From NCBI GenBank assembly GCA_027061995.1, contig JAMOUT010000079.1, positions 51,470 through 115,469 on the forward strand: a stretch of DNA of 64,000 nt. The letters are read 5' to 3'. Positions 37,585 through 51,700 of this stretch are shown piece after piece (within the stretch, counting starts at the first letter, position 1; each line of letters begins with the position of its first letter). Both the position numbers and the translations under genes were made by a program. Under the pieces are notes generated by a model. The model was not told where the DNA came from, searched no databases, and worked only from the letters and a program-made list of their open reading frames with translations. This DNA is from Candidatus Aminicenantota bacterium (GTDB lineage Bacteria; Acidobacteriota; Aminicenantia; JAMOAD01).

Positions 37585-38103
37585 ATGAACAGGAAGATAA
37601 TTTTATTATTACCCATTGTTTTAATCCCTTTTTTATTTTTATCATGCGGATATAAACTTCGTGGAACAGGAAATTTCCTCCCTTCCTATATGAAAAGTGT
37701 TTATATCCCTGAATTTAAAAACAAAACTTCAAGAGTTGACCTCGGGAGAATTATAACCGAAGAGGTTATATCCTCTTTTATTTCCAGGGGTAATTTCAAG
37801 TTATCAAACAGTGAAAATTCTGCTGAGGGGAAATTAAAAGGGGAAATTATAAGTTTTATAGTTATTCCGATAAATGCGGATGGCAGCGGAGGCTCTAAAT
37901 ATAAAGTGAAAATAAAAGTGAAAGTTGAATTCGTAGATTTAAAAAAAGGGGAGATAATATATAAAAATCCATCTTTTTACTATGAGGATGAATATGATAC
38001 TCTTGGAGGAGGGGATTTTTTATCCAAGGAAACAGAATCAATAAGAAAAATAGCGGAGCAATTATCTGTTTCACTTGTGAATACTATTCTCGAAGGTTTT
38101 TAA
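37585..38103 (+). CDS. lptE: LPS-assembly lipoprotein LptE-like
   Basis: LptE plugs the LptD barrel that inserts LPS in the outer leaflet of the outer membrane. The 172-residue protein has a lipoprotein signal (hydrophobic 5-19, FLSC, Cys21) and then CGYKLRGTGNFLP (21-33), the classical start of mature LptE, followed by YIPEFKNKTSRVDLGRIITEEV near 44-65 in parts, and an EGKLKGEII strand near 86. The order lptE-holA is conserved in many diderm bacteria and supports the call. Its stop is directly followed by the holA ATG. Confidence 0.85.
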   Translation: MNRKIILLLPIVLIPFLFLSCGYKLRGTGNFLPSYMKSVYIPEFKNKTSRVDLGRIITEEVISSFISRGNFKLSNSENSAEGKLKGEIISFIVIPINADGSGGSKYKVKIKVKVEFVDLKKGEIIYKNPSFYYEDEYDTLGGGDFLSKETESIRKIAEQLSVSLVNTILEGF

Positions 38104-45743: not shown

Positions 45744-45980
45744 ATGACATTAGATAATGCAAGGCTTAATAAAACATACAAAATAGTTGGTTTTTTAGGT
45801 GGTCCGAATCTTTCTCAAAGATTATATTCGATGGGTTTGTATATAGGGGCGAAAGTTCAGGTGAAAAGCGTTGCTCCCATGAGAGGCCCTCTCATTGTGC
45901 AAAACATTGATAATGAGATTCAGATTGCTCTCGGTAGGGGGATTATCAGAAAGATAGAGGTTGTGGAGAGTGATGTATGA
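45744..45980 (+). CDS. feoA: Ferrous iron transport protein A
   Basis: FeoA is a small cytosolic SH3-like protein that works with FeoB in Fe2+ uptake. The 78 residues show the family pattern: ARLNKTYKIVGFLGG near 6-20, LSQRLYSMGLYIGAKVQV near 24-41, and GPLIVQNIDNEIQIALGRGI near 48-67. Its stop overlaps the feoB ATG by 4 nt. Fe2+ uptake fits a low-oxygen habitat. Confidence 0.93.
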   Translation: MTLDNARLNKTYKIVGFLGGPNLSQRLYSMGLYIGAKVQVKSVAPMRGPLIVQNIDNEIQIALGRGIIRKIEVVESDV

Positions 45981-47875
45981 AACGAGTTGTTCTCGTAGGA
46001 CAGCCGAACTGCGGAAAAAGCGCTCTTTTTAATGCTATCGCCGGTTATAAGGCGAATTCAACAAATTTTCCCGGAACAACCGTATCAATATTAACCTCGG
46101 AAATTGTTCATAAGGGGGAGAGATTCGAGCTTGTGGATTTGCCCGGTTCTTACTCGCTTGCCCCTTTTGATAAAGCCGAGGAGGTAAATACTTTATATGC
46201 GATAAAAGAGAATTATGATCTTATTGTTAATGTGATAGATGCATCCATTCTAAGTCGTTCCCTTGAGCTTACAATTGAGATACTTGATATCGGAAAGCCT
46301 GTTATTCTTGTTCTTAATATGATGGATGAAGCAAAGAAAAAAGGGATTGATATAGATATTAAAAAATTGTCGGAAAGATTAAAAATTCCTGTTGTTCAAA
46401 CAATTGCAATTTATGGTGAGGGCGTGGATAAAATGCTTGATAAAACCATAGAATTATTGAATAATCCCGTTATCCCCCCTCCTGTTTATCTTTCGGAAAC
46501 TATTGAAGTTATAGTTAAAAATCTTGAGAAATATACGGAAAATCGGTTTCTTCTTATGAAAACAATTGAATGGGATAAAATAGAGGAGCATATTAAAATA
46601 GATAAAAAATTTGTTTCCGAATTTAAACGAATCAATGATGAGATTAAGAGATTATATAATAAAGATGTCAAAGAACTGATTTTCTCAGAAAGACATCATT
46701 TGTCCATGAAAATAGCTGAAGAGGTTACAACAATCTCTCATGATATTAAAAAAACATTCGAGGATAAAGCTGATTCCGTTTTTTATCACCCTTTTTGGGG
46801 ATATTTGATATTTGTTGCCTCCTTTATGTTAATGTTTTATCTTGTTTTTAAGATAGGGGGAGCTCTTGAAGGTGTTTTTACTTATCCTTTTGAATATCTT
46901 TCACGGCAGATGGAAACAGTGAAATTAACAAAAATGATAAAACCCGTTATTCAGGGAACTTTAGCCGGAACCATGGGAGCAATAGGAGTAATCATTCCTT
47001 TCATGATTCCGCTGGTGTTTTTTATTTCACTTTTTGAAGAGGCGGGATATCTTGCAAGATCAGCTTTTCTATTCGATAGTTTTATGCATAAAATCGGTCT
47101 TCACGGTAAATCCATTCCTCCCCTTCTTCTTGGTTTCGGTTGTAATGTTCCCGCAATTTCAGCAACAAGGATAATAGAAAGCGAGAGGGATAGAATATTA
47201 ACAGCTCTTTTAATCCCGTTTATCCCTTGTTCCGCGAGAACAATCATTATTTCCGCTCTTGTTTACTCTTTTCTCGGTGCGGGATGGGCGTTCTTCGTAT
47301 ATTTTATAAGTATTCTTGTTACGGTTATTGTTAGTTTGGTGGTTTCCAGATTGATTAAAATTCCCGCACCCGGGTTGATAATGGAGATACCCCGTTTTAA
47401 GTTTCCTTCTCTTAAAATTGCTATGCAAAAAACATGGCTTCAGCTTAAACCATTTCTTTTTTATGCAACGCCTATTCTTATTCTCGGAAGTATCTTTGTT
47501 GAGTATTTTAATATGTATGGGGCTGACACTATGATAAATACCGTGTTAAGACCTATAACATACATATTAGGGCTTCCCGCAAAAACGGGTTTTACACTCA
47601 TCTTTGGCTTTTTAAGAAAAGAGCTTGCTCTTTTAATGCTCGGGCAAGCCATGGGGGTTAAGATAACCGAGATTACAACAGCTCTTACATCTTCCCAAAT
47701 ATTATCTTTTTCAATATTTTCAACTCTGTATGTTCCCTGTCTTGCAACCATTTTGATTTTAAAGAAAGAGTTTAATTCCAAAATAGCGGGTATATCAATT
47801 GTTTTAAATACAAGTGTGGCGCTTGTGGTTACCATTGTAATTATTAATCTTTTAAAATTATTGGGGGTTTTTTAA
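45977..47875 (+). CDS. feoB: Ferrous iron transport protein B
   Basis: FeoB is the membrane Fe2+ transporter with an N-terminal G domain. In the 632-residue protein G1 is GQPNCGKS (8-15), followed by TNFPGTTV, DLPGSYSL (switch II) and NMMD (G4); a helical guanine-dissociation-inhibitor region spans about 170-260 and eight or so membrane segments follow to the end, with two Gate-like halves (GTMGAIGVIIPFMIPLVFF near 335 and LRKELALLMLGQAMG near 540). It is shorter than E. coli FeoB (773) but complete for the compact type. The NusG-like gene begins immediately after its stop. Confidence 0.95.
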   Translation: MKRVVLVGQPNCGKSALFNAIAGYKANSTNFPGTTVSILTSEIVHKGERFELVDLPGSYSLAPFDKAEEVNTLYAIKENYDLIVNVIDASILSRSLELTIEILDIGKPVILVLNMMDEAKKKGIDIDIKKLSERLKIPVVQTIAIYGEGVDKMLDKTIELLNNPVIPPPVYLSETIEVIVKNLEKYTENRFLLMKTIEWDKIEEHIKIDKKFVSEFKRINDEIKRLYNKDVKELIFSERHHLSMKIAEEVTTISHDIKKTFEDKADSVFYHPFWGYLIFVASFMLMFYLVFKIGGALEGVFTYPFEYLSRQMETVKLTKMIKPVIQGTLAGTMGAIGVIIPFMIPLVFFISLFEEAGYLARSAFLFDSFMHKIGLHGKSIPPLLLGFGCNVPAISATRIIESERDRILTALLIPFIPCSARTIIISALVYSFLGAGWAFFVYFISILVTVIVSLVVSRLIKIPAPGLIMEIPRFKFPSLKIAMQKTWLQLKPFLFYATPILILGSIFVEYFNMYGADTMINTVLRPITYILGLPAKTGFTLIFGFLRKELALLMLGQAMGVKITEITTALTSSQILSFSIFSTLYVPCLATILILKKEFNSKIAGISIVLNTSVALVVTIVIINLLKLLGVF

Positions 47876-48352
47876 ATGGTTGGAAAATGGTTTTTAATAA
47901 ATACAAAACCTCGGAAAGAATTTCAGGTTGAGAATATTTTGAGAATTAATCTTGATAAAGTTGAAGTTTATTGTCCCAAGTATGTGAAGAAAGATAATGT
48001 AAGAGCCTTTTTCCCGAATTATCTGTTTATAAAAATCGAGGATGAAAAACTGTTTCATACTGTAAAATACACACCCGGGGTCAGGAAAATAATAGGCAAT
48101 GGTAAAGGGCCTGTAATTGTTCCTGAAAAGATTATATATGCCATAAAAAACAGAGAAGAGGATGGTTATGTCAAGGTGGTTAGAAAAAATAGCGGGTTAA
48201 GAAGGGGAGATAAAGTTAAAATAGAAGAAGGTCCTTTTGACGGAGTTGAAGGGATTTTCCAGGAAGAGTTAAGGGATTCCGAGAGGGTAAAAATTCTTGT
48301 TTCTCTTTTATTGGTTGAGACTAAAAAAGAGTATATAAATAAAGTTAAATAA
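47876..48352 (+). CDS. NusG-family specialised antiterminator (UpxY/RfaH-like)
   Basis: The 158-residue protein has an N-terminal NGN domain (about 3-95, starting with KWFLINTKPRKEFQVE and including YTPGVRKIIGNGKGP at about 63-77) and a C-terminal KOW domain (about 105-150, LRRGDKVKIEEGPFDGVEG). The form is that of NusG paralogues of capsule and exopolysaccharide operons rather than housekeeping NusG, and no secE or rplK lies nearby. It lies between feoB and four envelope genes, so it is inferred to promote transcription through that cassette. Start directly follows the feoB stop. Confidence 0.8.
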   Translation: MVGKWFLINTKPRKEFQVENILRINLDKVEVYCPKYVKKDNVRAFFPNYLFIKIEDEKLFHTVKYTPGVRKIIGNGKGPVIVPEKIIYAIKNREEDGYVKVVRKNSGLRRGDKVKIEEGPFDGVEGIFQEELRDSERVKILVSLLLVETKKEYINKVK

Positions 48353-48411
48353 TCAAAATTTCGCAAAGTTAACAAGCTTGCATTTAAGAGAAAAAAATCG
48401 TAAGCTATTTT

Positions 48412-48861
48412 ATGATTAAGAAAATATCACTAATCTTAATAATTATTCTGTGCTCTTTAAATATTTTTTCAAAAGAAAATAAACCCTTGGGAATAAGTGG
48501 TTCTCACACTATTGGTTTTACATATATTATTCCGGGTTTTGAACAAATTAAACGAGGTTATTATTTAAAAGGGGGGATACTGTTTTTATCTTTTATCTCA
48601 ATTGTAACGGGGGGAATTATTGAAAATAAAAGGGGAAATGATTATTATAATATATACATGAACTCCATTGATATTGATGAAATCGTAGAGTCGAGATTAC
48701 AAGCGGAAAACCATTTTAAAAAAAGAAATTATTATATTATCGGCGGTGTTTCCATCTGGTTGATAAATCTGATAGATCTGAAATTTTTTAGTAAAAACCG
48801 AGGAATAAAAGGTGAGATTAAAAAGGATTATATATCTTTTGGCTTTTATTATATCTTTTAG
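48412..48861 (+). CDS. DUF5683-like small membrane/exported protein
   Basis: The 149-residue protein begins with a signal peptide or anchor (about 1-20). The motif YIIPGFEQIKRGYYLKGGIL (about 38-57) and a hydrophobic helix after it, then a NYYIIGGVSIWLINLIDLKF segment near 105-124, match DUF5683-type proteins, whose role is unknown. The next gene overlaps its 3' end by 50 nt. The 59-nt gap before it includes an imperfect 7-bp stem (AGCTTGC / GTAAGCT) with an A-rich loop. Confidence 0.55.
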   Translation: MIKKISLILIIILCSLNIFSKENKPLGISGSHTIGFTYIIPGFEQIKRGYYLKGGILFLSFISIVTGGIIENKRGNDYYNIYMNSIDIDEIVESRLQAENHFKKRNYYIIGGVSIWLINLIDLKFFSKNRGIKGEIKKDYISFGFYYIF

Positions 48862-49519
48862 TTCATGCAAAGATATTGTATTTAATAATCCTCTTGATCC
48901 CAATGCTTCAAAGGGTGTTATGAAAACAGTGAAAATAATAACAACCGGTTATACGGGAGAGGGGGATATCTGCTTTGACGGGGAAAAAATATGGAAAATT
49001 TTCCCTTCGGGAAGATTGATTGCTTTTGATATGGAATCAGGGACAAAAATAAGGGAGTTGGCATCATCGGGAGGGTTCGGAATCGATTATTATCAGGATA
49101 AATTATATGTATCCTCTGATAATGATTATCTTCCTTTAATTAATGTTTTATCGGGAGATCTTGAACAAAATCTTTTAACCTCCAATATTTATTATAAGTT
49201 TATTACAATAAATGATAATAATATTATAGGTTTTGATACAAAATCATCTTATTTCATAGAACTTAACCTTGAAACTTTTGAAAAAAAGCAACTTTTTAAA
49301 TTAACGGGTTTTAATATCGGGGGTATCTCAATGTTCGGCAATGATATTATTATTACTGAAAAAGATTCAAACTCAGTGTATATTTTCGATACCGAGGGAA
49401 AAGTAAGAGGGGTTTACTCCGCTCCCTCTAACAATGTTGTCGGTGTAGCTGTAGATAATGGTTTTAATATATATCTTTCATTTTCAGATGGAAAAATCTA
49501 TAAAGTTATATTACCTTAG
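48812..49519 (+). CDS. Lipoprotein with beta-propeller-like repeats
   Basis: The 235-residue protein has a lipoprotein signal (hydrophobic 7-16, FSSC, Cys19) followed by a NPLDPNA stretch often seen at the start of mature surface lipoproteins. The rest repeats the pattern of a beta-propeller blade (GEGDICFDGEKIWKIF, GFGIDYYQDKLYVSS, NIGGISMFGNDIIITEKDS, NVVGVAVDNGFNIYLSFSDG). No enzymatic motif is seen. It overlaps the preceding gene by 50 nt and the following gene by about 32 nt, so it belongs to the NusG-headed cassette. Confidence 0.55.
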   Translation: MRLKRIIYLLAFIISFSSCKDIVFNNPLDPNASKGVMKTVKIITTGYTGEGDICFDGEKIWKIFPSGRLIAFDMESGTKIRELASSGGFGIDYYQDKLYVSSDNDYLPLINVLSGDLEQNLLTSNIYYKFITINDNNIIGFDTKSSYFIELNLETFEKKQLFKLTGFNIGGISMFGNDIIITEKDSNSVYIFDTEGKVRGVYSAPSNNVVGVAVDNGFNIYLSFSDGKIYKVILP

Positions 49520-51287
49520 CCTTTTATTTTTTTTTATATCTGTTATTATTTTGCCCGCAAAAACAAAATATATGAATTTTAAGGGGGATTATTTTATTTA
49601 CGGGGTAGATCAAAGCTATATATATGGAGGGGGTAATATAATAATAAAAACAGAAAAAAACAAAATCCTTAAAGGGAATACCCTTTATTTTGATGTAAAA
49701 AATTTGACAGGTGTTTTGATGGGCTCCTCTTTTATTATGGATGGCAAGGTGGAAAAAGGGTATGATGAGATAAGATTTTCCATTGGACCTTTTAAATTCG
49801 AAGGGGTGAATTACGGAGAAAAAATATCCGCAAGCAAAGATAATATCCCGACAATAAAATTATTGTCTGTTAAAACACTTAAACAATCGGCTGTATTTTA
49901 TGAGATGAAAGAATTTTATCTTTATAAATCGAAAAAGATTACAGGAAGATATGTTATCCCTTATATTATGGGAATTCCATCTTTTCCCATGAAAAAATTA
50001 ACCGTGAAAAAGACAGAGATTATTGATAAAACAATGTTCTTTGTTAAAAACATGAATTATTCTCGGGGTTACGGATTATCTTTAATATCAGGGTTGAAAA
50101 TACAAAGTAAAAAGATAAAAGGGGATTATGAATTCAGACTTTTTGAAAGAGGTGCATTTAAACTACCCGGAGAAAAAAGAGGGCTTAATATATCAGGTGA
50201 AACCGGAGTTTTTATTAAAGGGAAAAAAATTCTCAATATCTCAAGTTTCCTTAGTTCTGATTACGGATCATTTGGTTTTAATCTTTACCATGAGAATAAT
50301 ATAGGTTCTGTATTTTACTCTTTAAACCAAAGTATAAGCGGGATGAAAGGGGAAAAAACATATTCAAGAATCAGCGGTAAAATAATATTTAAAAGGTTTA
50401 AAACAATTATTCCGAAATTTGGTTTTCAATATAATTATAATAAGGATTTTTCATATAGAATCTCAACATATTTAAAACCTTTAAAACCACTTGATTTAAA
50501 TATTTCTTATAATAGAAGAAAGAATAGTGAACAATATATATCCGATAGTTCCGGATTTTCATCTTCCCTTAATTTTTCCTCCAAAATATTATCCTTTTCC
50601 TCAAACTTAAATCTGAATAAGGATTTGATAAATGATACTTTAAAAAAAGATTTTTCTCTTAATTTCAGATTGCCGGGTTTTAGTTTTTTTAATAATCTAA
50701 ATTTTAATCTTTCCCCTTTTTTTAGTTTTTCAGAGTTTCCTTCAAATAACGGTGTTTTTACGAAAAACAATTTCGGACTTAATTTTTCCGCTATATCCAT
50801 GGGGATTGAACTTCCTTTTGGAATTATATTCTCTCCTGCTGTAAATTTGTATCAACTATGGGAAAAAACCGAGAGGGGTAAAACTAATTTTAATTATGTA
50901 TTATCCATTGAAAAAAGGATTTGGAATTTTAGTTTGGGAGTTGATTATAATCTCTCCTCCTCATATTTCTCGGATAATTTTTGGATAGAGGGATATAATT
51001 TAAAGAATCTGGATTTCAGGATAGAATTGTCTAAAGACAATAGTTATTCTTTTGTTTCAAGATTTTATTTTAACAATTATTATATACTTGAAAATATAAG
51101 TTTAAGAGGGTTGATTAAATTTCCTCTAAAGATTAAATTATCATCTTATGCTATCTATGACAATTATAATAAAAAAATGCAAACTTTTGAGATTTTTCTC
51201 GAAAAAAATTTTAGAAACAGATTCAGATTACAAGGAGGTTATTCATTATTATTAAAAAGGTTTTTTATAAAAGTTATCCCCTCTTGA
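49488..51287 (+). CDS. Large outer-membrane beta-barrel, LptD/OstA-like
   Basis: Using the ATG at 49488 the protein has about 599 residues, with a signal peptide (hydrophobic about 6-24) and then an OstA-like N-terminal part: YFIYGVDQSYIYGGGNIII and KNKILKGNTLYFDVKNLTG (about 34-73), the short repeat that in LptA and LptD forms the beta-jellyroll for LPS. From about 175 onward amphipathic beta strands continue to the end, as in a large barrel. LptD itself or a paralogue is my best guess; LptE is encoded 12 kb away. No clear ribosome-binding site is present; an in-frame TTG at 49458 would add ten residues. Confidence 0.5.
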   Translation: MEKSIKLYYLSLLFFFISVIILPAKTKYMNFKGDYFIYGVDQSYIYGGGNIIIKTEKNKILKGNTLYFDVKNLTGVLMGSSFIMDGKVEKGYDEIRFSIGPFKFEGVNYGEKISASKDNIPTIKLLSVKTLKQSAVFYEMKEFYLYKSKKITGRYVIPYIMGIPSFPMKKLTVKKTEIIDKTMFFVKNMNYSRGYGLSLISGLKIQSKKIKGDYEFRLFERGAFKLPGEKRGLNISGETGVFIKGKKILNISSFLSSDYGSFGFNLYHENNIGSVFYSLNQSISGMKGEKTYSRISGKIIFKRFKTIIPKFGFQYNYNKDFSYRISTYLKPLKPLDLNISYNRRKNSEQYISDSSGFSSSLNFSSKILSFSSNLNLNKDLINDTLKKDFSLNFRLPGFSFFNNLNFNLSPFFSFSEFPSNNGVFTKNNFGLNFSAISMGIELPFGIIFSPAVNLYQLWEKTERGKTNFNYVLSIEKRIWNFSLGVDYNLSSSYFSDNFWIEGYNLKNLDFRIELSKDNSYSFVSRFYFNNYYILENISLRGLIKFPLKIKLSSYAIYDNYNKKMQTFEIFLEKNFRNRFRLQGGYSLLLKRFFIKVIPS

Positions 51288-51700
51288 TAGTTTTGTTTTT
51301 TATGGGATGCGGGGTAAAACCCGAACTTTTACCTTTTAAAAAGTATCCGAATGTTGAAAAAGTGCTTTTTCTTAAAAAGATTATTGTGCATGGGGAAAGT
51401 GTTGAAAAAATATTTTTTAAAGATAAAATTATTCCTCCGTTTTTTATATATTTGGAATTAAAAGATGTTGAGGGAGAGGGTTTTATTATTCTAAAACTTT
51501 ATAATAATAAACAGGAAATTTATCATAAAAAATTCTCTTTCGGGAAGAAGGGGAAATTGTATGATTCCATAATAATATGGGATAGAATTGAGATAAAAAA
51601 ATATAGAAAACTTAAATATGCGATTTTTTATAAAAAAAATCTTATCTACAGAGGCGATCTTGATATAAAAACGGGGAAAAATAAGATAATCGAGAAATAA
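51245..51700 (+). CDS. Small lipoprotein, probably started at AUU
   Basis: If translation begins at ATT 51245 (or 51248), the protein has a classical lipoprotein signal: KKVFYKSYPLLIVLFFMGC, with basic residues, a hydrophobic core and a Cys. AGGAGG at 51233-51238 is 6 to 9 nt before these ATT codons. The only ordinary in-frame starts (TTG 51284, ATG 51302) have no ribosome-binding site and would leave a truncated signal without positive charge. The mature part of about 130 residues is beta-rich and unknown. It overlaps the barrel gene by 43 nt, and a plug or partner role for the barrel is possible but only inferred. Confidence 0.55.
   Translation: MIIKKVFYKSYPLLIVLFFMGCGVKPELLPFKKYPNVEKVLFLKKIIVHGESVEKIFFKDKIIPPFFIYLELKDVEGEGFIILKLYNNKQEIYHKKFSFGKKGKLYDSIIIWDRIEIKKYRKLKYAIFYKKNLIYRGDLDIKTGKNKIIEK

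Follow-up and report, generated by a model that had tools for sequence, protein, structure and literature searches.

A candidate second LptD-derived outer-membrane translocon encoded beside the ordinary Lpt machine in Aminicenantia

The common view of LptD is of one essential protein that has LPS as its sole cargo. The described system closest to the locus reported here is the LptD–LptE pair, known from E. coli, Shigella and Klebsiella (PDB 4q35, 8h1s and 9ia5). LptD-type barrels are also thought to move cargo other than LPS (PMC13317210; PMC10353723; PMC8407342). The Borrelia burgdorferi homologue, BB0838, is needed for surface lipoproteins (PMC13317210), and the Treponema pallidum homologue, TP0515, occurs in a cell that has no LPS, with a glycolipid as its suspected cargo (PMC8407342). 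In each case the literature presents the protein as the cell's own LptD, and no LptE was identified.

Here we analyze a four-gene cassette in a 2.36-Mb draft genome of a Candidatus Aminicenantota bacterium, within a 64,000-nucleotide stretch of contig JAMOUT010000079.1 (hereafter the window, in which all plain coordinates are counted). The cassette has in common with LptD–LptE a barrel of profile-level homology, a predicted plan of a jellyroll plus 26 strands, and a small lipoprotein partner. However, the barrel is about 600 aa long, against 700–790 aa, and lacks the conserved disulfide-switch cysteines and the PYF..RKTGFL motif; its partner has a predicted beta-sandwich fold, and two extra genes accompany the pair. 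Nor does the barrel fit the picture of LptD as the main, one-per-genome LPS exporter, being dispensable and encoded beside an ordinary LptD. Unlike BB0838 and TP0515, it is an extra paralogue: its cell encodes LptD, LptE and LpxC as well. We put the probability that the cassette is a second LptD-derived outer-membrane translocon, working beside ordinary LptDE, at about 0.5. If this is true, a second, dispensable barrel with a new kind of lipoprotein partner would show the LptD fold put to a further use, the export of a different surface lipid or lipoprotein, and the cassette would offer a defined set of genes on which to test what governs the choice of cargo by LptD-type barrels and whether LptE is necessary as a plug. 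Our literature searches found no account of a cassette built around an LptD paralogue, in agreement with the preliminary description of the locus as a candidate for an undescribed system.

Cassette layout, conservation and upstream neighbors

All features of the locus lie on the forward strand. Two neighboring ferrous iron transport genes, feoA (45744–45980; PF04023, E 2e-16) and feoB (45977–47875; TIGR00437, 480.7 bits), are followed with zero gap by a gene for an RfaH/UpxY-like NusG paralogue (47876–48352), confirming that a NusG-family gene abuts feoB. After a spacing of 59 nt come the cassette genes, which overlap by 50, 29 and 43 nt and encode a small membrane protein of the DUF5683 family (48412–48861), a beta-propeller lipoprotein termed lip1 (48812–49519), the LptD-like barrel (49491–51287; 598 aa, most likely starting at the ATG at 49491) and a small lipoprotein termed lip2 (51245–51700; 151 aa, with a probable ATT start). 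The preliminary description reported four overlapping envelope genes after the NusG gene. The overlaps stand, and the four gene identities were upheld by family, profile and structure comparison, but the 59-nt gap separates the NusG gene from the cassette and the lip2 start had to be corrected.

Among loci on sufficiently long contigs, the order DUF5683–lip1–barrel is kept in about 18 relatives, and the surroundings vary (purDE-mtaB-like genes upstream, ksgA-like genes downstream, or others). Conservation of gene order, which had been proposed as a check on the locus, is thus class-wide and extends well past close relatives. The barrel is present in 59 of the 142 class genomes, one of the 59 being a short fragment. 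Nearly all remaining matches in class genomes are 700–790-aa frames matched at the N-terminus only, which we read as ordinary LptD. Outside class Aminicenantia, a sample of 396 genomes from across the phylum Acidobacteriota yielded no barrel. A scan of genome contigs with a single barrel sequence returned nothing, and a scan with a narrower barrel alignment returned nine loci, named Aminicenantes or Acidobacteria. Because the genomes are drafts, single absences may be gaps, and counts across genomes are not independent. The barrel tree contains two well-supported clades, A and B, and family f5 is divided between them through either duplication or transfer. Second OstA hits of 615–630 aa in four genomes (G005, G057, G058 and G059) were rejected as further barrels; these proteins consist of OstA repeats with one N-terminal anchor, three of the four are encoded beside lptB-like and rpoN-like genes, and we read them as LptC/LptA-type proteins.

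The preliminary description placed the NusG paralogue at the head of the cassette and in its service. By sequence, the protein resembles RfaH, UpxY and LoaP below every curated cut-off, the RfaH model (TIGR01955) scoring best (86.4 bits against 144.5), followed by UpxY (69.9 against 100) and LoaP (42.9 against 125). In this one genome, a dedicated antiterminator of the cassette would be consistent with the position of the gene, on the same strand and 59 nt away with no clear terminator between; a search of this interval for a terminator or attenuator gave nothing above shuffles. Across the class, however, paralogue and cassette dissociate in both directions. Of the class genomes searched, nearly all outside family f4 have the paralogue, usually as one copy besides NusG; f4 has the cassette and lacks the paralogue, whereas in most f3 genomes only the paralogue of the two is present. 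In three sister genomes of the same family (G001, G003 and G004), feoAB and the NusG paralogue are followed by a response-regulator gene on the opposite strand and the paralogue never adjoins the cassette, nor does it do so in any relative whose cassette surroundings were read. This double dissociation, together with the conserved feoAB–NusG order in the sisters, indicates that the adjacency is a local accident here, and on these sequence comparisons the NusG paralogue is an unrelated neighbor outside the cassette. The RfaH/UpxY type of service to a long envelope operon does not hold for this cassette, from which the paralogue is unlinked in relatives. A class-wide role as dedicated antiterminator is largely refuted by sequence comparison, and we regard such a dedicated role as extremely improbable in this species too, where the feoAB–NusG adjacency may possibly allow read-through into the cassette. 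The fixed position of the paralogue behind feoAB in this family (L116, L117 and L118) is unusual for an RfaH-like factor.

A diverged LptD paralogue beside an ordinary Lpt machine

The barrel matches none of the Pfam and NCBIfam models, and with these models silent its kinship to LptD required profile-profile and structure comparison. In an alignment, 20 barrel homologues from relatives have an N-terminus that resembles OstA, after which a long stretch is rich in beta structure. Profile-profile alignment (hhalign) of the barrel family with the LptD family, the latter represented by five Aminicenantes sequences of ordinary LptD, gave a probability of 98 and an E of 2.5e-13 over 558 columns. The AF2 model (mean pLDDT 87, pTM 0.52) predicts an N-terminal OstA/jellyroll domain and 26 strands over residues 182–597 (DSSP count), and its 15 best PDB matches in Foldseek are LptD structures throughout. 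From the profile match, the modelled fold and the PDB matches, we conclude that the barrel is a diverged LptD paralogue, in line with the earlier suggestion of an LptD-like barrel of roughly 600 residues, and that it is devoid of the cysteines and the gate motif of ordinary LptD. The window barrel has zero cysteines, other members have 0–6, scattered, and the PYF..RKTGFL.P motif is missing from the family; ordinary LptDs have both the cysteines and the motif. The absence of these features suggests that gating is different or that the barrel has another role.

One such role would be to form a channel of the porin type, or a pore that exports a soluble compound or a polysaccharide; the kinship to LptD would then be ancestral only. 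The loss of the LptD-specific cysteines and gate motif fits this idea, as do the weak likeness of lip2 to carbohydrate-binding sandwiches such as the Wzt domain and the VIA-align comparison, in which Z for LptD was no higher than for other large barrels, so that LptD and generic barrels were not separated. Among the matches listed by VIA-align, though, LptD (8h1r) is the one that extends over the N-terminal domain of the barrel too, and the whole barrel family has kept the jellyroll, which is the part of LptD that carries lipid. We consider a pore of this kind highly doubtful.

The barrel is also not the ordinary LptD of the cell. A profile search of the same genome found a second locus, outside the window (G000:C101:29369-31492), that matches the N-terminal part of the barrel alone and encodes a 707-aa ordinary LptD with the motif PAFYLPYFYYPI..KRKTGFLMP and a match to PF19838 (LptD_2, E 5e-10). 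Since a separate ordinary LptD is encoded there, the barrel was ruled out as the LptD of this genome; it is neither the sole LptD nor, as described above, in an unconserved gene order, the two outcomes that the preliminary description had named as counting against it. The inventory of the genome comprises lpxC, this ordinary LptD, LptE and one fused LptG–LptF. The separate LptE described in the window is genuine (37585–38103; PF04390, E 1.5e-10, above cut-off) and is presumed to be the partner of the ordinary LptD. Searches of the same genome with PF04453 and PF13100 gave zero hits despite the encoded LptD, so missing Pfam hits are uninformative here. LptD was also detected in 28 of 33 barrel genomes, the five without an LptD hit being drafts. 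LptG and LptF are fused in a single 761-aa frame (L151:5096-7381), the end of whose locus is nearly duplicated on a 3.1-kb contig (L150), probably through strain variation or mixture or as an assembly duplicate. A third PF03739 hit lies on this near-copy and was rejected as a second LptFG permease for the cassette.

The lipoproteins and the DUF5683 protein

Of 60 genomes, 33 have the barrel, and lip2 was found in 31 of these; the 27 genomes that lack the barrel gave no lip2 once Pal-like hits are removed. With the two Pal-like hits left in, the co-occurrence has a Fisher p of 2e-12; these hits, in the barrel-less genomes G013 and G057, were rejected as lip2 because the proteins matched through the signal peptide. 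Five families (f1, f4, f5, f7 and f9) each hold genomes with both barrel and lip2 and others with neither, and shared ancestry alone is therefore insufficient to explain the pairing. The lip2 gene follows the barrel gene in clade A (f1, f4 and part of f5) and in two clade-B genomes (G059 and G005). In the other clade-B genomes it lies away from the barrel gene, in several beside a murA-resembling gene, and the two are co-inherited even where they are far apart. From this co-inheritance, lip2 appears to be an obligate partner of the barrel, much as LptE is of LptD, which bears out the earlier pairing of the barrel with a small lipoprotein, and the near-perfect pattern leads us to predict direct binding.

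The lipobox cysteine of lip2 is invariant in the alignment of homologues. Its AF2 model is an eight-strand Ig-like beta-sandwich (pLDDT mostly >92 over residues 31–140) with weak structural likeness to the Wzt carbohydrate-binding domain, UNC119/RhoGDI and a Leptospira protein. We found no homology to LptE: a PF04390 search of lip2 gave zero matches, and hhalign against the window LptE aligned 17 signal-peptide columns with a probability of 4. LptE is absent among the listed structural matches, which excludes nothing. The predicted all-beta fold and the lack of LptE homology count against the translocon reading. A different reading is that the barrel flips surface lipoproteins, the cassette's own or others, and not a glycolipid, given that two lipoproteins accompany the barrel or are encoded close to it and that the Borrelia LptD homologue is a precedent for lipoprotein clients. 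We find this possible but unlikely, as the strict co-inheritance of barrel and lip2 equally fits a structural partner and the surface exposure of lip1 and lip2 is hypothetical.

The start of lip2 is embedded in the barrel gene. An AGGAGG Shine-Dalgarno-like site (51233–51238, forward strand) lies within the Gln-Gly-Gly codons of the barrel, whose QGGYSL stretch has the codons GGA GGN TAY TCA TTR in 12 of 12 distinct clade-A sequences (f1 and f5). In the lip2 frame, all 12 linked f1/f5 cassettes read GGAGG, six bases, ATT. The serine codon is TCA in 12/12, against a TCA use of 2–30% in the same genes; the chance of this is a product of about 7e-11 if the sequences are taken as independent, which, being related, they are not. 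The five f4 sequences have TCC for this serine and a lip2 that starts at an ATG further on. An NTG start in the lip2 frame would replace the barrel leucine by Cys, Trp or a stop codon, and in G004 the stretch examined ahead of the lipobox cysteine contains no ATG, GTG or TTG. We infer that lip2 most likely starts at the ATT at 51245 and not at the TTG at 51284. Initiation at AUU is rare and, as in the textbook example infC, usually means translation that is limited and sensitive to initiation factors. The conservation of this AUU codon gives the cassette a second point open to test. Around it (51233–51247), the synonymous sites of the barrel are constrained in the 12 of 12 related sequences.

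The lip1 gene, which immediately precedes the barrel gene in relatives, has a GTG start within its overlap with the DUF5683 gene, and its product carries a lipobox cysteine. In the alignment, a fixed [FN]NPxDP motif lies a few residues past this lipid-bearing cysteine. The lip1 profile matches NHL, WD40 and vgb-lyase propellers (best E 8e-15) and also reaches BamB (E about 2e-5). A BamB-like propeller would suit a cassette that assists outer-membrane assembly or quality control, of the ordinary LptD or of other barrels, with the barrel as scaffold or decoy and not as translocon, and it is in keeping with the lack of a dedicated inner-membrane permease, one fused LptG–LptF being all that was found. 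However, the propeller matches are generic, NHL and WD40 scoring better than BamB, and the barrel retains both LptD domains, which would be needless in a scaffold, so we judge a role of this kind distinctly unlikely.

The DUF5683 protein has a signal peptide, two hydrophobic helices and a C-terminal strand with a terminal Phe. PF18935 matches 17 of 18 homologues (best E 7.3e-12), and the window protein itself scores 15.6 bits against a cut-off of 26.7. The function of the family is uncharacterised, and the one paper that we found mentioning it has no bearing on cell envelopes. Almost all homologues have a Phe-terminated, alternating aromatic end (xGxxYxF) that resembles an outer-membrane beta-signal and coexists with the two hydrophobic helices.

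A possible transport route and the distribution of lipid A genes

A more specific form of the translocon reading, which we hold more tentatively, is that the cassette is a dedicated second lipid translocon derived from LptD, with a lipoprotein other than LptE and two accessories, working parallel to LptDE on a different lipid-anchored cargo. The periplasmic jellyroll would take up a lipid-anchored molecule, such as a glycolipid, an LPS variant or a lipoprotein, and the cargo would pass into the barrel and out of its side to reach the outer leaflet. With only one LptFG permease found, loading would occur either through the shared, ordinary Lpt bridge or without an ABC bridge of its own. In this scheme lip2 would replace LptE as the plug or assembly partner of the barrel, and the lip1 propeller and the DUF5683 protein could be accessory factors that help in assembly or docking. 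Counting against this reading, the cassette is linked to no gene that would make a cargo.

Many genomes that make lipid A lack the cassette, which makes it dispensable; within one genus, G014 is without it and G007, G017 and G020 carry it. The barrel is absent from the near-complete lineages that are consistently without LpxC, and the barrel genomes without LpxC are five incomplete drafts of genus g7 in f5; the link between barrel and LpxC is weak (Fisher p 0.01, among related genomes). In family f3, the genomes searched (e.g. G006, G037, G043 and G047), with the exception of G045, are without LpxC and have kept a full-length LptD, and several are assembled in ten or fewer contigs. The retention of full-length LptD where LpxC is missing suggests that the f3 LptD carries something other than LPS.
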